DNA of 47,388 nt from contig WTHB01000021.1 in assembly GCA_011523305.1 (NCBI GenBank), positions 1 through 47,388 of the forward strand. Direction: 5' to 3'. The stretch's first letter is position 1. Each line of letters begins with the position of its first letter. Positions 114 through 9,269 of this stretch are shown piece after piece. Position numbers and translations under genes: made by a program. Origin of the DNA: Planctomycetaceae bacterium (lineage in GTDB: Bacteria; Planctomycetota; Planctomycetia; Pirellulales; UBA1268). The notes under the pieces were generated by a model. The model saw nothing but the letters and a program-made list of their open reading frames with translations, searched no databases and was not told the DNA's origin.

Positions 114-203
114 TAGGCGTCCTAAGGCACGACAATGCGGGATTCCGGTCTGGCGGGAAACGTCACCTCACACGTTCTGGCTCTTGTCAAAGGTTGGTTT
201 CCG

Positions 204-2804
204 ATGGCCTCTCTGTTTCGCGGGATTTTTACCCGTCCTGTTGCCTCTCAACGTCGTCGGCCGAGGGTGGCTGGTCCTGCGATGCCGCTTGAGCGACTCG
301 AGCCGCGGCTGGCGTTGGCTGGCGACACGTTCTCCCGGCCGATGCTTGAGCGTGCTGCCACACTGGTGATGGATGCGTCGTTCGGCCCCAACCCCGTGGT
401 AATGACTAAGTCGCAGGTGATTGGGAACGATATAAAGAGTTTTGTGATTGCGCATGTGCCCGAAGGGTCGGTGGTTGAGAAGTGGGATGTCGCGACGGAA
501 ACTTGGATTGACGTCTCCACGAAACCCACCAACAGCAATCCGCAGGAGTTGATGCGGCTGCTTGGTACCCGGTTGATCCAGCAAGGCGACAAGATCCAGT
601 GGCGGCCGAAGCCTGGCTTTGAAAACGCGGTTCAGCAGGCCTTCCAGATGATCAACTGGGATGACGGCAGTGACCTGCCTGGAGTATCTGAGGATGCGCC
701 GAGTGCTGTCCGAAATCTGTCTGTCGGCGGAGTCGAACAAGACGGCGCTGCGTACATCTCGGTGGCGTGGGAGTCACCTTTGGTCGGTGCGGCATCGTCG
801 TACGCCGTGACGACGTCATATGTAACGCTCGGCGGTGAAACTCAGACGACCACAACCGTAACTCAGCAGTTGTCGTTCCAGCAGTTGCTGGAAAATATTG
901 CAACGCTCTACTCCTTCACGGTCACCGCGTCAAATGCCGAGGGGACGAGCAGTCCTGAAAGCATTGAATACAACCCGGCCACCGCAATGCCATCGGAACC
1001 ACTCGCTCTCGCAATTGCGCCTGGGCCTGGGGATGATGAGTTCACGATGTCATGGCAAACGCCTGCCTATGCTGGTCCTTCGGGTTCATCAATTGATTAC
1101 TACGAGGTGACAAACTGGCAGACCGGTGAAAAGCAAAACCTTCCCGCAGGTGCCAATTCTGTAATTTTCACTGGGATCGAGCCGCGTTCCGCCTCGCTGT
1201 TTACGGTGCGGGCATACAACACCAACCCAATCGCAGGGGGTGGCCTCCTTGCTCAAATCGCCGTTGATGAATATGGCCAGCGTGTTCCGTTGCCGCCGAG
1301 TAATCCCTTCATGGGAATCGAGGGTCTGTCGACGATGCATGCCAATGCAGCTTCGTCGGACGTAACAGTCTTTCCGGGCCCTGGCACAGAACCATCAACT
1401 TTTTATGCCAACCCAAACCTAAATGCGGCGATGCCTTCAATACTCATGACCGAAAATGGGGCATTGGTGTGCGTCGGTGTTGGAACCCAAATTACTGATG
1501 CCAAGACGCCGATCGTGATGCTGATTTCACCCACGACATTGAACGTGCTTGATCGGGTCCCGCTCGTAAAGCCAGAAAATGCTGAGGGTGATCTTGCTGG
1601 CGGCGTCTACAACTTCATCGATTACCAAAACCGTCTCGTCGTCGTTGACGCGGAGGGCAATATGCGGTGGTTTTCCAACTCATACGATGCGGGGAGCGAC
1701 CAAGGGCATTTAATTCAAGTTGGGCAGATTAATATTTCTGACGTCAGCGGCCAGAACCTCGATCTTGTGGTTGGTCTTGTGCCAGACTACGAAGGCCGTA
1801 TCTGGTTTGCGACCGAAGGCTCCATCAACGAGTTAAGCCCCTTTCAAACGAGCGGTGCTGTTTCCCCAATGGTTGGCTACTATGACCCCCGGACGAACAA
1901 TGTTGAAACGATGGTTGTGCCACAAAATCCGGGCACAATCCCCGCGATGATTGCTAACAGCATTTCCTCGTCACCGGCTGGAGTGGCTGTGGCAACAACG
2001 CAGGAGTTGTTTCTTTTCAAGGCTTCTGAGACCGACGGTTCGATTGAGATAGCCTGGAGCCAGCAATACCTCAACGGAAACGTTCGCAAACCCGGCCAGC
2101 TCAGTCCAGGAACGGGTTCAACGCCGGTCTTTTTCGGCCCATCGTCGGGGTATGAGTATTTGGTAATTACAGACAACGGTGTAGCACCGGGTGGCAACAC
2201 GATTCCAGCTGAAAATGTGGTTGTGTACGACGTGGCAAGTGGTTTGGAGGTTAGTCAGGCTCCTTTTCTCTATTCCAATAATTCCGGCACTGAAAATGCT
2301 CCCATCGCTGTTGGGGAACGCATTATTATTCCGAGCACCTACGGCTACTGGTATCCGCCGCCCTCTGAAACCACGCCAGCAGTTCCTGAATACGCGTCTT
2401 TCGTTGGTGGAATTCAAGGGATGATTTTGGATTCGGAGGAAGCTCTTCAATGGGAGTGGGAGAGCAGATGGCCGGACCAAGGTCAGATAGTGCCCTCATC
2501 AGCTCTGCCAAGGCTTTCCATGGCGGACGGTCTGCTCTACACGATCATGGTTGAGTGGTACGTGCCTGATGAACGACGACACCAATCGTCGGCGACTTAC
2601 AGTTGGGTCGTAATAGACTCGAATACAGGTGTTGTTGAGAATACTGGTGGGCCAGTCGGGACAAATACGTGGGGCGGGCAATTCCCAACAACGGCTATTA
2701 AGTCAAGTTATTCGTGGAATACACTGCAAATGACAGGTGTAATTAGTCCGAGCGGGGTGTTGTATCAGGGTACTGCCCAGGGGCTGTACAGGCTCGGGCC
2801 GTAA
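204..2804 (+). CDS. Secreted planctomycete surface protein: LEPR-type N-terminus, two fibronectin-III domains, propeller-like C-terminus
   Basis: The ORF opens at 135, but I prefer the ATG at 204 (MASLFRGIFTRP...), which has an AAAGG about 11 bases upstream and places the basic stretch RRRPR and the motif PLERLEPRLALAGD near the N-terminus. That LEPR motif is typical of large exported planctomycete proteins. Two fibronectin type III-like domains follow, beginning near 'PSAVRNLSVGG' and 'MPSEPLALAIAP'. The C-terminal ~480 residues hold repeated short beta-rich units (e.g. 'LLYTIMVEW', 'GVLYQGTAQGLYRLGP') resembling a PQQ/WD-type propeller. No enzymatic motif is seen, so the role is probably cell-surface or extracellular. 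GC content looks clearly lower than in the repair and PKS genes, and the gene is flanked by transposase fragments, so recent acquisition is possible. Confidence 0.75.
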   Translation: MASLFRGIFTRPVASQRRRPRVAGPAMPLERLEPRLALAGDTFSRPMLERAATLVMDASFGPNPVVMTKSQVIGNDIKSFVIAHVPEGSVVEKWDVATETWIDVSTKPTNSNPQELMRLLGTRLIQQGDKIQWRPKPGFENAVQQAFQMINWDDGSDLPGVSEDAPSAVRNLSVGGVEQDGAAYISVAWESPLVGAASSYAVTTSYVTLGGETQTTTTVTQQLSFQQLLENIATLYSFTVTASNAEGTSSPESIEYNPATAMPSEPLALAIAPGPGDDEFTMSWQTPAYAGPSGSSIDYYEVTNWQTGEKQNLPAGANSVIFTGIEPRSASLFTVRAYNTNPIAGGGLLAQIAVDEYGQRVPLPPSNPFMGIEGLSTMHANAASSDVTVFPGPGTEPSTFYANPNLNAAMPSILMTENGALVCVGVGTQITDAKTPIVMLISPTTLNVLDRVPLVKPENAEGDLAGGVYNFIDYQNRLVVVDAEGNMRWFSNSYDAGSDQGHLIQVGQINISDVSGQNLDLVVGLVPDYEGRIWFATEGSINELSPFQTSGAVSPMVGYYDPRTNNVETMVVPQNPGTIPAMIANSISSSPAGVAVATTQELFLFKASETDGSIEIAWSQQYLNGNVRKPGQLSPGTGSTPVFFGPSSGYEYLVITDNGVAPGGNTIPAENVVVYDVASGLEVSQAPFLYSNNSGTENAPIAVGERIIIPSTYGYWYPPPSETTPAVPEYASFVGGIQGMILDSEEALQWEWESRWPDQGQIVPSSALPRLSMADGLLYTIMVEWYVPDERRHQSSATYSWVVIDSNTGVVENTGGPVGTNTWGGQFPTTAIKSSYSWNTLQMTGVISPSGVLYQGTAQGLYRLGP

Positions 2805-2841: not shown

Positions 2842-3075
2842 TTACGGCCTGCCGTCTGCTGCGGGTTCTTTTCCCGTTACAAGGGCGTGGGCCTGGCGGG
2901 CGAATCGTCTGCCGAGAATCACATAGCCGTCTTTGGTGTAGTGCACATCGTTCCGCATCTCTCCAAAGGATAGGACGGTCAACGGCACTTTCGCAAGCAT
3001 CGCGTCCACCAGGAGAAGCCCCACAGCGTTGCTCCGCTCCTCAGGCGGGCGAAGGAGATCGCTCATGACCCACAA
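2842..3075 (-). pseudogene. Chimeric remnant: short IS91-like piece joined to the C-terminus of an SGNH/GDSL-type esterase
   Basis: The 77-residue ORF has two unlike parts. Its centre, VDAMLAKVPLTVLSF, is encoded by a 41-bp stretch identical to one in the transposase N-terminal fragment at 7511-7551. Its C-terminal ~40 residues (NDVHYTKDGYVILGRRFARQ) resemble the last block of SGNH/GDSL carbohydrate esterases, in which a D-x-H supplies the catalytic Asp and His. Nothing upstream looks like the rest of an esterase (no GDS block). It reads as debris from a rearrangement. The 3076-3287 stretch beyond it shows no convincing gene. Confidence 0.5.
2966..3006. repeat. 41-bp perfect direct repeat, copy 1
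   Basis: The sequence beginning aaggataggacggtcaacgg is identical over 41 bases to 7511-7551 and in the same orientation. Identity stops sharply at both ends in both copies. In copy 2 it encodes part of the transposase zinc-domain region. In copy 1 it sits inside the chimeric remnant ORF. Confidence 0.9.
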
Positions 3076-3287
3076 GACGACGAGAAAACAAAGCTGAAAA
3101 GCCGGCTTGCCAGCAGAATTCTGCCCGCCGCTTAGACCGCTTTTGAATCGCCTTCAGTGTGGCAGCGCGATCGTGCGTCACGAAGCAAGAGCACCCGCCG
3201 TCAGCGGCGATGAATGTCGGTCATGGGCAGGTCGTTGGACAAAGCTTGATGAAGACTGTGGTCACCATCAGCCTGCACCAGGTCATC

Positions 3288-4112
3288 CTAATCGACGGTT
3301 GGTCCTCGAGCCGGTGGCACAGGGGGCGGCACCAGTGGTTCACCGAGGTGCGTCAGAATCTGTCGAATCGTCACAGGATTAGCGATGAAATTGACCAGCC
3401 GGATGTCGCCACCACAATTCGGGCACGCCAGCGAAAACGCTTCTCCCACTCGGGCTAGCAACTTCGCCCAGGCGATCCGTGAGGTGTCGTGGGAACACGC
3501 CTTTTCATCGGTGCTGTCGGCTCTGTCAGTAAGTTCTCCCTGATTGCCGATCGCCATGGCGGTCACGGCTGGCCGCAACGGGTGATTCGGTGCAAACACC
3601 CCGTGATAGCGATGCCGGTGTTTTCGGGGCGGCGGAATGAGTGCTGCTAGACGATCCAGAAACTCAAACGGTGTCAGCTCCACCACCCCAGTTACACCGG
3701 GCCGCATTGACTTCCGTGCACGGCCCGGCCCGACCCAGTCACCCCGCTTGTGCCGGGGCAGGGTGTAGCGAACCCGCTCAGGCTGGTCGCCCCGGCTTGC
3801 CACGACCGAAAGCCGCTCCAGCGCAAACGCCGGCCGGGCGCAGTATCGCAACAGGTGTTCAAGACTCCGGAAATGCACCGGCACATCTCGGTCAGCGGGT
3901 GAGATGCGAACACTCGCATCGACTGAAAACCCGCTGTGCTGCCAGGCGAGCATGTCGGCGGCTGCCTTACGACTGAGAAACCTCTTCCTGCGGAACCACC
4001 GCACCAGTCGCCGCCTTACCCGCTGGGTGACAGTTGCCAGGTCTGATGCTGACAGCGGCCGGGCCGAATGAGAGAAATGGACACCCTCGACCGCTGTCGG
4101 GGAGGTCATGGC
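3288..4112 (-). pseudogene. IS91-family transposase, C-terminal half
   Basis: The ORF (3288-4124, TTG start) aligns by eye with the region after the HUH motif of IS91-type transposases. It has EGVHFSHSARPLSASDLATV, then an arginine-rich helix RVRRRLVRWFRRKRFL, the LEHLLRYCARPAF block with a conserved Tyr, VELTPFEFLDRLAALIPPPRKHRHRYHGVFAPNHPLRP in segments, and a late zinc-type CPNCGG. The N-terminal ~180 residues (zinc domain and HUH motif) are absent, and an in-frame stop lies just upstream of the TTG, so it cannot encode an active enzyme. The break falls about 45 bases downstream of the type III PKS stop codon. The matching N-terminal domain is found 3.4 kb away on the same strand at 7511-7780. 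Confidence 0.85.
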
Positions 4113-4156
4113 TGATCTGCTCAACCCGGTGCTCTATGAAACCCCATAGCCGTCCA

Positions 4157-5296
4157 TTAGGGCTGGCTGACCAACAGGGCCAGTTCAGCGGTCAGGCCAG
4201 GGCCAAAGGCCATCGCGACGCAAGTCTCAGGTGATGCCGTTGCAGTGAAGCGGTTGGCCATGGAGTAACCACCGACGAACAACTGCTCAAGGATAAACAG
4301 GATCGTGCCGCTTGACATGTTGCCGTGTTCGGCAAGAACTGCCCTAGATATGGCTAGGTGGTTTGGCGCAAGGTCAAGTGCGGTCTCCACGGCTGACAGC
4401 ACACGGGGGCCACCGGGGTGGACCGCCCAGTGATCAACGTCGCTGAGACTGAGGCTGTGCGGGGCCAACAGTTCGTCAACCAGAGCCGGCAGCGGTGCGG
4501 CTATGGTGCCGGGCACCTCAGCCGACAGGGTCATCTCAAAGCCATGGTCACCGATCGTCCAGCCCATCTGACTGGCTGAGTCGGCCAGAATGGCAGAGCG
4601 TTGATCGATCAGTGTCCAATGGCGATCTGTCGGCTGGCCAGGTAAGCCCCTGCCAACTACCGCAGCCGCCCCGTCGGCGAAGATGCTGTTGGCAACAATC
4701 TGTTCGGCCTCACGGCCGTATTGAAAGTGCAGGCTGCAGAGTTCGACGCAGACGACCAGCACCACGGCAGCCGGATCAGCACTACCAAAGGCCGACGCCA
4801 CCCGCAGGGCATTGAAAGCCCCGTGGCAGCCCATGAAGCCGACGTGTGTTCGGGCCACGGTGGCAGGCAGGCCGAGTGTTTCGATCAGGGCCAGATCGAC
4901 TCCAGGAGCAGCGAAGCCCGTACACGAACAGGTGACGAGATGGGTCACCTCAGCCGGGCTTACGTTGCTCGCTGCTAACGCCCGTTCCACCGCTGTTGCC
5001 GCCAAGCCGGGCGCCTCACGGCAGTAGCGATCCATGCGGGCCGCCGTGGATGGACCCGCGTCGTCACTGTCACGGGCTGGCGGAAAAAAGCTTTGGGCGA
5101 AGGCCGCGTCACCGGGGTCTTCCAGCAACACCGAGCCACGATGGGCGATGCGTGTCTGGCGATAGACCGCCGACAGCGTTCGTTCACGCCGGGCGGCTGA
5201 GCCGACAAGCGTGCCAGCCAGTACAGCGGCGTCTTGCTGGGCAATCTGTCGCGGCGGTGCAGCGGTACCAATACCGAGGATGCGAAAGTTCATCAT
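4157..5296 (-). CDS. Type III polyketide synthase (chalcone/stilbene synthase family)
   Basis: This homodimeric ketosynthase condenses malonyl-CoA onto an acyl-CoA starter and cyclises the chain without an acyl carrier protein. The Cys-His-Asn triad is visible: Cys in THVGFMGCHGAFNAL (about residue 157), His in WAVHPGGPRVL and Asn in EHGNMSSGTILF. Length from the ATG ATG at 5296/5293 (MMNFRILGIGTAAPP) is ~378 residues, normal for the family. The ORF track start at 5422 adds 42 residues without family resemblance. Neither start has a good ribosome-binding site, so the choice rests on homology. It is the last gene of a minus-strand operon with an FAD oxidoreductase and a methyltransferase. The three-enzyme set resembles the Streptomyces srsA-srsB-srsC type of phenolic-lipid operon. 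The starter unit and product cannot be read from sequence. Confidence 0.93.
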   Translation of the reverse strand: MMNFRILGIGTAAPPRQIAQQDAAVLAGTLVGSAARRERTLSAVYRQTRIAHRGSVLLEDPGDAAFAQSFFPPARDSDDAGPSTAARMDRYCREAPGLAATAVERALAASNVSPAEVTHLVTCSCTGFAAPGVDLALIETLGLPATVARTHVGFMGCHGAFNALRVASAFGSADPAAVVLVVCVELCSLHFQYGREAEQIVANSIFADGAAAVVGRGLPGQPTDRHWTLIDQRSAILADSASQMGWTIGDHGFEMTLSAEVPGTIAAPLPALVDELLAPHSLSLSDVDHWAVHPGGPRVLSAVETALDLAPNHLAISRAVLAEHGNMSSGTILFILEQLFVGGYSMANRFTATASPETCVAMAFGPGLTAELALLVSQP

Positions 5297-5458
5297 CAGA
5301 GTTTGACAGATGCACGCGGCGGCGGCGATGGCCACGGTTTGGCAACGTGGTTTTGGGTCGGTACTGTCCTCTATTTCTTTTCCAGCCTTCCCGATACCAG
5401 CGGCCTGGGGGCAGGTTGTCATGGGACACGCAGCGAGTGGTTCACCGACAGGCCGGCA

Positions 5459-6691
5459 TTATTCAGTGCCCGTGCAGAGGCGAGCAACTCGGCCGGCGAG
5501 GTCAGGAAACCAGGCGGCTGCCCGAACGGCAGCGGCCACCAGCAGCGGGTGCCGCAGGGCGATCGCAACGCCGCGGCAACGACGATGCCGTTGGGCAAAG
5601 CTCTGCCGATGCCGTTGCCGATAGCTGGCCGCCGCCGTTGCTGGCGGCAGCAACTGACCATCTCGGCCAACAAGTGATTCGGTGAGAAGGCGGGCGGCAT
5701 GGAGGGCCCAGCCGATGCCCTCGCCGGTGAAGGGCTCGACATAACCGGTGGCGTCACCCACGCGATACATCAAGTTGCTGGCCGGATCGATGGGTGCCGT
5801 TTGGTGGGTCAACGGGGGTGTCGCCCGAATTGTGGCGGCGGTGATCGCCGCTGGGCTGATGACTCTCCCCGTCGCTCCCTCGGCCTCGGCGAGCAGGTGG
5901 GTCAGTGCAGCAGCTGGTGAACCGGCAGCCGCGACGGCAGTGGGGGCAACCGCTGCTGCCAGGTCGATACGACCATCTTCCAGTTGAACCAGCCCACAAT
6001 AGCCAGCCCGTGCCACCGCCATGATGAGCCGCCCAGCCTGCATGCTACCGCTGTCGCCTGGCAGCGTTGTGCCGAGCCCGATCAGGTTGTACGGCGGTCG
6101 CCTCCGCAGGGCTGTACGGCTGCCAGTCGGTGCAATGGTGCGGACTGCTTCGGCGAGGCCGCCAGCGATGATGAGCCGCTGCGTTGTGAGCGTCTGTTCC
6201 TGTCCTCCGGCTGCAGCAGCGACGACCTCGACACCCGTCGAATTGGGCCTGGCAGAAAGCACGCGGGTTTCCGGCAGCCAGGCAGTGCCGGCGGCAATTG
6301 CCTGGCGGATGATCGCCGGGTCAAGGGTTTCGCGTGACTGCACGGCACCGACGGGGAGTGACAGACAGGCGGTTCGGCCGCCGGCAATCAGCTGGACGTG
6401 GTTGAGCGGCAGCCTGACGGCTGAAATTGTGTCTTCGGCAGCCAGGCCCAGCCGCCGGAGTTCATCCACCGCCAACGGTGACAGGCAGCAGCCGCAGACC
6501 TTGGGCCGCGGGAACCGATCGCGATCAATCAGCAGCACCCGCAGATTGGCCTCCGCAAGTTGCGTCGCGGTGGCTGCCCCAGCGGGCCCGGCCCCGATGA
6601 TGATGACATCCCAAGTGGCCCCGGCCACATCAGCGGCAGTGATCGTGGCCGGCAGTGGCGTCGCTACTCGCAGGAAGGTGTCACAGGTCAT
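5459..6691 (-). CDS. FAD-dependent oxidoreductase, geranylgeranyl-reductase-like
   Basis: The N-terminal Rossmann fold VIIIGAGPAGAATATQLAE binds FAD and is followed by the acidic strand end LLIDRD. PKVCGCCLSPLAVDELRRLGL is the conserved second block of the geranylgeranyl reductase/halogenase-like flavoprotein group. GDATGYVEPFTGEGIGWALHAA is the C-terminal FAD-binding GD motif. At 410 residues it is a normal, full-length member. Its ATG overlaps the methyltransferase stop (ATGA), indicating coupled translation, and it precedes the type III PKS. In such operons the flavoprotein usually hydroxylates or oxidises the polyketide. Whether this one oxidises or reduces is not decided by the motifs. 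Confidence 0.88.
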   Translation of the reverse strand: MTCDTFLRVATPLPATITAADVAGATWDVIIIGAGPAGAATATQLAEANLRVLLIDRDRFPRPKVCGCCLSPLAVDELRRLGLAAEDTISAVRLPLNHVQLIAGGRTACLSLPVGAVQSRETLDPAIIRQAIAAGTAWLPETRVLSARPNSTGVEVVAAAAGGQEQTLTTQRLIIAGGLAEAVRTIAPTGSRTALRRRPPYNLIGLGTTLPGDSGSMQAGRLIMAVARAGYCGLVQLEDGRIDLAAAVAPTAVAAAGSPAAALTHLLAEAEGATGRVISPAAITAATIRATPPLTHQTAPIDPASNLMYRVGDATGYVEPFTGEGIGWALHAARLLTESLVGRDGQLLPPATAAASYRQRHRQSFAQRHRRCRGVAIALRHPLLVAAAVRAAAWFPDLAGRVARLCTGTE

Positions 6692-7419
6692 GCAGGCCGT
6701 TCCCAGCTGACGCAGGCCCGCTCGGGCCAGGTGCGGTCGATCTCGGCGTGTGGCAGACCGGCTGCAGTAAGCAGCTGTCGGTATTCCTCAGTCGTGCGAG
6801 CCGCCTTGACCGACAGCGGTCCGTCGACACGGGCCACCCGCGAGCGGGCGAGGAAGGTGGTGCCCAGCCGGGCGAGCAGCAGTCCTAGCTGGCTGCGAAG
6901 CAGATCGGAGAAGACACCGCCGGTTCCTGCAGCGCTGGTCATCGACTGGAGCAGGCCGGTGGCTTCGGCGTCGTTGAGGTGATGCAGAAACAGGGAATGA
7001 ATCGCCACGTCACAGTCGGGGCAGCCGTCGCCCAGCGCATCAGCCTGGCGAAAGTGAAGGCTGGTGGAACCGCTGTCACCGGCATGCTGCTGGTGGGCCC
7101 AAGCGATCGCCCGCTCGCTGATGTCGATGCCGACAACCTCCACCCGCCGGGCAAGCCTGGCCCCGAGCTGCCGGGCAATGGCAGCCGTGAGATTGCCCCC
7201 ACCACAGGCGATGTCAATGATTCGGACAGCCGGACCACCGGCTGGTGTGGAGCTGGCCTCCAACAGTCTGACGATTCGCCGAGTCAGCTGGGCCGCTGTT
7301 TGTGAGATCCAATTGATGCGGGCAAGGGCAACCAACGCCCGACGATGTTCGGCCTCGTTGAGGGTCGGGTCATCCATTTGTTCGGGCGGGCGGTCCGTCA
7401 GCGGTGGCAGTGATCGCAT
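6688..7419 (-). CDS. SAM-dependent class I methyltransferase of the PKS operon
   Basis: Motif I for S-adenosylmethionine binding is seen as VRIIDIACGGGNLTAAIA, followed by VVGIDISERAIAWA (motif II with the ribose-binding Asp) and DVAIHSLFLHHL (motif IV). The ORF track extends to 7578, but the first ~50 residues are read through transposase-derived sequence (LADAMLAKVPLTVLSF) and are not part of the enzyme. The ATG at 7419 (MRSLPPLTDRP) or 7377 (MDDPTLNEAEH) fits better. Neither has a strong Shine-Dalgarno. It is the first gene of the operon, and its stop codon overlaps the FAD oxidoreductase start. Presumably it O- or C-methylates the polyketide. Its promoter would lie between 7420 and the transposase fragment. 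Confidence 0.85.
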   Translation of the reverse strand: MRSLPPLTDRPPEQMDDPTLNEAEHRRALVALARINWISQTAAQLTRRIVRLLEASSTPAGGPAVRIIDIACGGGNLTAAIARQLGARLARRVEVVGIDISERAIAWAHQQHAGDSGSTSLHFRQADALGDGCPDCDVAIHSLFLHHLNDAEATGLLQSMTSAAGTGGVFSDLLRSQLGLLLARLGTTFLARSRVARVDGPLSVKAARTTEEYRQLLTAAGLPHAEIDRTWPERACVSWERPA

Positions 7420-7510
7420 GAAAAATCGCTGAGGGTGAAAGACAAACCGGCACGGTACCGTATTCTGGCAGCGAAGCGGCACAGAACTACTTCCCGCGGA
7501 GAAGTCGGTG

Positions 7511-7551
7511 AAGGATAGGACGGTCAACGGCACTTTCGCAAGCATCGCGTC
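7511..7551. repeat. 41-bp perfect direct repeat, copy 2
   Basis: Identical to 2966-3006. Here it forms the low-coordinate end of the transposase N-terminal fragment. The transposase resemblance ends where the repeat ends (7511), the same base at which copy 1 is cut (2966). Confidence 0.9.
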
Positions 7552-7780
7552 GGCCAGACGCGCCGCCGTCTGGGTCATTTGCCGACCGGTGCAGGACGGG
7601 CAGACCCCGCGGACCTTGCACGAAAAACGCTACCAGAAAGCTGTGGCCGCAGCTTGTGCACTTCGCCCGCGCAAATGCAAAACAGAGCACCCCGCAGGTC
7701 AGGTAGCGGCGGAACTCCTTTTCAACATGATGCCGAGGCTTAGGGCGGTCAGTGATCTCTTCTATGCCGCTGAGCAGCCG
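7511..7780 (-). pseudogene. IS91-family transposase, N-terminal zinc domain, frameshifted
   Basis: Read on the minus strand, HVEKEFRRYLTCGVLCFAFA and then CTSCGHSFLVAF belong to the frame of the 7487-7837 ORF. After a run of five T (7623-7627 as A on plus) the match continues one frame over as SCKVRGVCPSCTGRQMTQTA and LADAMLAKVP. Together these give the two CxxC pairs of the zinc-binding N-terminal domain found in IS91-type transposases (typical text: FARVRC..CGH..LVAFSCKGRGFCPSC). A single extra T explains the frame break. The rest of the transposase is missing downstream, replaced by the methyltransferase-PKS operon. The fragment is dead as a gene. Confidence 0.85.
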
Positions 7781-7817
7781 GCTGCGCCGGGCAGCTGAGC
7801 ATTTGGGGCCAGCGGCG

Positions 7818-9269
7818 TCACGCCAGAATGCCCTCAACCACGTGGCCGTGGACGTCGGTCAGCCGGTAGCGGCGGCCCTGGAACTTGTAGATGAGCCGTT
7901 CATGATCGATGCCGAGTAGGCGCAATAGCGTGGCGTGGAAGTCGTGCACGTGGACGCCGTCCTTAGCGACGTTGTAACCATACTCGCAGGTCTCACCCCA
8001 GGTGACACCGGGCTTGATACCGCCACCAGCCATCCAACTCGTAAAGCAGCGAGGATGATGATCACGGCCGAAGTCAGCCCCCGGCCGGTAGATTCCTTGG
8101 CAATAGTTGGTGCGACCAAACTCACCGCCCCAGATCACCAGCGTTTCATCAAGCATGCCCCGGTCGGCGAGGTCTTGGACAAGGGCGGCTGCTGGCTGGT
8201 CGGTCTCCTGGCACTGATGCTTGATCTTCCCTTTGAGGCCGCCGTGGTTGTCCCAACCCTGGTGATAAAGCTGGATGAATCGCACGCCCCGTTCGGCAAG
8301 CCGGCGGGCGAGCAGACAGTTGGCGGCAAAACTGCCGGCGTCCTTGGTGTCGGGACCGTAGCGGTCGAGCACATGCTCGGGCTCGTCAGAAAAGTCAGTC
8401 GCATCCGGCACACTGGCCTGCATCCGGTAGGCCATTTCGTAGTTGGCAATCCGGGCGGCAATCTCGGCATCCGGTGTGCCCGCAAACTGATGCTCGTGCA
8501 ATTGCCGTAGGCCGTCGAGCATCCGACGGCGGCTTTCGGCTGAGACGCCGGGCGGATTGTTGACGTAGAGCACCGGGTCAGCACCCGAACGGAACCGTAC
8601 CGCCTGATGCCGTGAGGGCAGAAAGCCAGCCCCCCAGAGATGGCTCTGCAGCGGTTGGCCACTCTTGTTCTTGGTGATCAGGACGACAAAGGCGGGCAGG
8701 TCATCAGACTCGCGGCCGAGGCCATAGTCGAGCCAGGCGCCGATGCTTGGCCGACCGGGAATCTGCGAGCCACTCTGCATGAAGGTGACGCCTGGGCCAT
8801 GATTGATGCTTTCGGTGAACATCGTCTTGACGAAGCAGAGCCGGTCGGCCACGCCCGCTGTGTGGGGCAGCAAGTCGCTGATCCAGGCGCCGCTCTCCCC
8901 GTGCTGAGCAAACTGAAACGGCGAGCCGACCAGCGGGATTGAACTTTGGTTCCCGGACATGCCGGTGAGCCGCTGGCCACCGCGAACGCTCTCAGGCAAT
9001 TGCTCGCCGGTTCGCTCACGCAGCAGTGGCTTGTGGTCGAACAGGTCGAGCTGCGACGGTCCACCTGACTGAAACAGATAGATCACTCGCTTGGCCTTCG
9101 GGGCATGATGCAGTGTCTTGAGCACCCCGGGGGTGCTGGCCGCCTGGGCGTTGCTCCCGAGCATCTCAGCCAGGGCCAAACCACCGAGGCCCATGCCGAA
9201 ACTGCCAAGCCACTGCCGACGGCTCAGGACTGGTGCCGCGGGGTGAGGTGTTGTCTGTTGCTGCGTCAT
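7818..9269 (-). CDS. DUF1501 family protein, Tat-exported
   Basis: The N-terminus carries a twin-arginine signal, SRRQWLGSFGMGLGGLALAEML (SRRQWLG with a hydrophobic helix and AQA cleavage site). The mature part has the DUF1501 hallmarks: VIYLFQSGGPSQLDLFDHKP near the start, SINHGPGVTFMQSGS in the middle, VRFIQLYHQGWDNHGGLKG, and LVIWGGEFGRTNYCQG near the C-terminus. DUF1501 proteins are alkaline-phosphatase/sulfatase-fold proteins of unknown activity, greatly expanded in planctomycetes. The start ATG overlaps the stop of the upstream cytochrome/PSD1 gene by ATGA, the usual pairing in this phylum. Full length at 483 residues. The downstream side borders the transposase fragment. Confidence 0.93.
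   Translation of the reverse strand: MTQQQTTPHPAAPVLSRRQWLGSFGMGLGGLALAEMLGSNAQAASTPGVLKTLHHAPKAKRVIYLFQSGGPSQLDLFDHKPLLRERTGEQLPESVRGGQRLTGMSGNQSSIPLVGSPFQFAQHGESGAWISDLLPHTAGVADRLCFVKTMFTESINHGPGVTFMQSGSQIPGRPSIGAWLDYGLGRESDDLPAFVVLITKNKSGQPLQSHLWGAGFLPSRHQAVRFRSGADPVLYVNNPPGVSAESRRRMLDGLRQLHEHQFAGTPDAEIAARIANYEMAYRMQASVPDATDFSDEPEHVLDRYGPDTKDAGSFAANCLLARRLAERGVRFIQLYHQGWDNHGGLKGKIKHQCQETDQPAAALVQDLADRGMLDETLVIWGGEFGRTNYCQGIYRPGADFGRDHHPRCFTSWMAGGGIKPGVTWGETCEYGYNVAKDGVHVHDFHATLLRLLGIDHERLIYKFQGRRYRLTDVHGHVVEGILA

Follow-up and report, generated by a model that had tools for sequence, protein, structure and literature searches.

A 47,388-nt contig of a Planctomycetaceae bacterium (hereafter the window) carries a methyltransferase-FAD oxidoreductase-type III PKS operon between two decayed IS91-like copies that share the same 3′ end. 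The old locus of the operon in the same genome no longer contains it, the operon's gene trees are vertical, and it now lies at a synteny breakpoint. The order of these parts suggests, without proving it, that an IS91-like element moved the operon; we infer both the transposition route and its direction. The explanation that we prefer, with slightly under an even chance of being correct, is that the native operon was moved by one-ended rolling-circle transposition.

Operon and flanking transposase pieces all lie on the minus strand. The sequence-only reading had described this arrangement as an operon between two transposase pieces, and its coordinates, strand and order were borne out by Pfam matches and by mapping onto L050, an intact relative transposase of 527 aa. 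The features are as follows, the 5′ boundaries of the IS copies being approximate.

2842..2965, minus strand: C-terminal tail of an SGNH/acetylesterase-like gene, directly next to the IS 3′ end (identified by eye, without a Pfam match)
2966..3287, minus strand: 3′ untranslated part and 3′ terminus of the left IS91-like copy, the last 47 nt being direct repeat copy 1
3210..4066, minus strand: C-terminal transposase part of the left IS91-like copy, residues 231-525, with a stop at 3288 and without the HUH motif; 5′-truncated
4157..5422, minus strand: type III PKS, third operon gene (Pfam)
5459..6691, minus strand: FAD-dependent oxidoreductase (FAD), operon gene 2 (Pfam)
6688..7422, minus strand: SAM methyltransferase (MT), operon gene 1 (Pfam); 90 bp separate its ATG from the IS 3′ end
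7511..7557, minus strand: 3′ terminus (oriIS side) of the right remnant, direct repeat copy 2, 96% identical to 2966-3012 and with an end base common to other copies
7549..7770 (start approximate), minus strand: zinc-binding part of the right IS91-like remnant, residues ~52-120, frameshifted and 5′-truncated
7818..9269, minus strand: native DUF1501 gene at the right edge, 79-93% identical to congeneric orthologues

All three gene families, in identical order, make up the planctomycete alkylresorcinol operon described previously (hidABC-like; PMC10896814), from which the window operon differs in being displaced and IS-bracketed. Judged from its sequence, it probably makes phenolic lipids. Its GC and GC3 are near those of the neighbouring genes. 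The true PKS start is likely near 5295, relatives aligning from residue ~43. Without a frame break, the MT open frame (6688-7578, minus strand) extends upstream across the IS 3′ end, and a longer fusion product is possible.

Domain analysis assigned the left piece (3288-4124, minus strand) to Y2_Tnp (PF04986; E 5e-14, over the Pfam cut-off). The right piece (7487-7837, minus strand) matches Zn_Tnp_IS91 (PF14319; E 6e-4) below the cut-off because of a frameshift, and its zinc domain aligns clearly with intact relatives. On L050, the left piece covers residues 231-525 (about 4064-3210, with a premature stop at 3288), and the right piece covers residues 52-120 in two frames (about 7759-7549). Residues 121-230 occur in neither, in agreement with the earlier estimate that about 100 residues including the HUH motif are missing between the pieces. 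Intact relatives possess this motif (HHVHLH at residues 200-205 of L050), and neither window piece provides it within a complete transposase. By these alignments, both window copies are dead IS91-like remnants rather than functional members of the family.

In the right remnant, the zinc part (residues LAD) joins the element 3′ end directly at a CTGG..GAC microhomology, where intact relatives read LADHVIPPVPVRQW. This direct passage from zinc domain into 3′ end marks the right piece as an internal-deletion remnant with its own 3′ end. A second zinc-end fusion of this kind was not found in the genome, and a MITE-like family for the right remnant was rejected on that ground.

The shared terminus is a 47-nt direct repeat (2966-3012 and 7511-7557; 96% identical, two mismatches). 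A genome search with 2960-4130 returned many partial copies that stop at, or within ~1 base of, the same point, on contigs including C136, C100, C186, C8, C35, C139, C75, C193 and C2; intact elements from other genera stop at the same end base. This common end point indicates that the repeat is the 3′ end of the element, a conserved oriIS-type end lying 3′ of the transposase gene, and consequently that the left element reaches down to 2966.

Since each piece is followed by its own 3′ end, the pieces appear to derive from at least two element copies and not from one split gene. Insertion of the operon into a single transposase gene, which the sequence-only reading favoured, would explain the order, the common strand and the non-overlapping residues; the two element 3′ ends, one of them directly behind the zinc part, rule it out for practical purposes unless the 47-nt end arrived with the operon, and leave it a negligible probability. 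The two different decayed copies that the same reading had allowed for are what the termini point to, and carriage by elements of the IS91-like family, the other half of its interpretation, fits much better: the operon is absent from the ancestral locus in the same genome, and a further locus (L132) shows the same bracket.

With up to 3 mismatches allowed, the 3.49 Mb contain only nine such ends, against 0 in the control. By simple arithmetic, ~0.05 same-strand pairs this close would be expected anywhere under uniform placement, a figure that fragment clustering weakens. The pairing of 3′ ends around the operon is not due to chance. The nine best 3′ ends in the genome lie on eight contigs and all on the minus strand, which is odd if contig orientation is arbitrary.

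Ends of the oriIS side lie at 2966 and 7511, and no terIS was identified; the 5′ ends of intact relatives vary in alignment, and both window copies are 5′-truncated. A DNA hairpin of the oriIS type at the element 3′ end was not significant. IS91 uses GTTC/CTTG as its tetranucleotide target next to the ori end. Most element ends here are followed by CTT with a variable fourth base, which could belong to element or target, and the full list of CTATC-like ends in the genome is noisy.

Comparison with related genera places the operon within a conserved block, FIST-c10-MT-FAD-PKS-GlgE, extended to aldolase-ARD-HAD-FIST-c10-MT-FAD-PKS-GlgE in other congeners and several other genera. In other congeners (L027:6664-9044, L029:6252-8632, L030, L033), FAD and PKS are separated by two opposite-strand genes, one for a CitMHS/ArsB-like transporter and the other lacking a Pfam match. 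In the genome of the window (G000), FIST and GlgE stand 6.4 kb apart on contig C94, separated by c10, a GDSL hydrolase, DUF1553 and DUF1501; no operon gene, IS sequence or IS scar was found in this interval. The GDSL-DUF1553-DUF1501 cassette occupies the operon's place between c10 and GlgE (L101:7897-13440). Sister species G004 has the same replacement (L222:8285-13715), so the operon left before G000 and G004 split. In G007, neither PKS nor DUF1501 adjoins GlgE.

Phylogenetic trees of PKS, FAD and MT placed G000 beside its own genus (100/99 support), and the GlgE tree is compatible with them. PKS identity is higher to genus g9 (67%, against 57-58%), which hinted at horizontal transfer from another genus; the trees of all three operon genes reject such a transfer. 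Because these genes branch with their own genus, distant transfer of the operon is unlikely. Taken with the operon-less block on C94, the genus-native trees indicate that the operon has moved from its ancestral FIST-GlgE locus.

The site now occupied by the operon has a genus-native DUF1553-DUF1501 pair followed by genes other than those found downstream of it in relatives, which marks the site as a synteny breakpoint. An empty-site comparison, as proposed earlier, yielded none for this locus, where other congeners carry MFS/TRAP-like transporter genes after the same DUF1501. The earlier reading had also named, as evidence against itself, the same operon and context in relatives free of transposase fragments; relatives keep the operon elsewhere. 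A donor, a circle or a clean empty site was not seen among the compared genomes, which are nearly all draft assemblies and mostly MAGs. Beyond the left edge, an fn3-domain protein (135-2804, plus strand) has a GC of 0.545 against ~0.63-0.65 around it and is possibly of foreign origin.

Among ~100 PKS loci searched for IS traces, the bracket recurred only in L132 (VGYP01000099.1), a contig from an unrelated planctomycete, with a single end in G018. L132 begins with an IS transposase C-terminus and 3′ end (1-261), followed after 198 bp by MT, FAD, PKS and an IS N-terminal fragment. Its operon groups near genus g7, apart from that of the window (89/93 support, with a long-branch warning), and is apparently a second, independent case of an IS-bracketed operon. 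The IS91 N-terminal fragment at L132:3722-3850 adjoins, in fused form, a stretch that by eye resembles part of an IS3-type integrase. In G018, c10-MT has an IS end upstream, yet GlgE still follows the operon. Within the family, the operon's context has changed several times, with traces of this IS in only two such cases; other operons outside the FIST-GlgE block showed no trace of it, so IS involvement is not general.

IS91 elements have their ori end on the 3′ side of the transposase; when ter fails or is lost, adjacent DNA is taken along as far as a surrogate end (PMC9676059, PMC5714925). By one-ended transposition, the ter-less (5′-truncated) left copy would have carried the operon, starting at its 3′ end (2966) and reading through the truncated transposase and then through the operon upstream of it, while functional transposase was provided in trans. 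The operon does lie on the upstream side of this ter-less copy, where DNA is expected to be carried along. The mobile segment would have landed beside an older copy (3′ end at 7511), whose presence there would account for the second 3′ end in direct orientation, and the far boundary may have been set by the end of the older copy or by a nearby surrogate sequence.

One-ended transposition has been the explanation for the metaldehyde genes (PMC9676059), which have 45-bp fragments of IS91 ends on their upstream side and an IS91 lacking ter on the downstream side; the window likewise has its cargo between a 3′ end and a 5′-truncated same-strand copy. ISCR1 has its cargo on the oriIS side, with blaCTX-M-9 94 bp from the end (PMC6218425), against 90 bp for the cargo ATG in the window. 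Y2/zinc transposase relatives and the conserved 3′ end are further likenesses to the IS91/ISCR family. Unlike the cargo of those systems, that of the window is a resident chromosomal secondary-metabolite operon, apparently moved within its lineage, and both copies are decayed. A further difference from ISCR systems concerns the outward promoter at the oriIS end that would drive the cargo: a scan confined to sigma-70-like promoters detected none at 7380-7830.

The IS pieces might instead have acted simply as repeats between which ectopic recombination or translocation took place, without a rolling circle. Many co-oriented, decayed copies in the genome, the 96% identity of right and left ends and the breakpoint at the present site are consistent with this, but it would need an IS remnant at the ancestral C94 locus, where there is none, and the two ends now have no more than 47 bp in common; we consider it unlikely. 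Slightly less probable again is that the operon moved by other means and that the intergenic gaps were only afterwards invaded by IS91-like elements, which then decayed. IS fragments are indeed common and clustered (five in C136, for example), other relocated operons bear no trace of this IS, and the G018 end lies near an operon that retained its old neighbours. Such accumulation sits poorly with fragments within ~100 bp on both sides, on one strand, at a moved operon, and with the same bracket in L132. A broader proposal, that the two direct 3′ ends form a 4.5-kb translocatable unit, a circle with the operon, that repeatedly moves chromosomal metabolite operons in freshwater planctomycetes, would have rolling-circle replication start at one 3′ end and stop at the other, releasing the operon circle; we regard it as improbable.

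Loss of the operon in the G000/G004 ancestor, followed by its return to G000 from a close relative on an IS91-like vehicle, would fit the replaced locus common to G004 and the lack of a PKS match in G004 and G007, weak evidence given that both genomes are incomplete. In all three operon trees G000 falls beside its own genus, GlgE gives a compatible tree and operon GC is native, all of which make this course quite improbable. A draft contig with a direct repeat at both edges also invites suspicion that it was misassembled at these 47 nt. At that length the repeat falls below common assembly word sizes, its copies differ by two mismatches, the operon is absent at C94 regardless, and L132 has the same order; we give an artefact very little credence. 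One-ended transposition itself has to contend with the decay of both IS copies, an ancestral C94 site without an IS scar, and the placement of L132 at only 89/93 with its long-branch warning.

Most known cases of cargo movement by IS91/ISCR elements concern resistance and catabolic genes. In the present case, the relocated DNA appears to be a resident operon for lipid biosynthesis that stayed within its own lineage, and the vacated locus and the new IS-bracketed locus are both readable in one genome. This offers a test of how planctomycete biosynthetic operons change neighbourhood without distant horizontal transfer.
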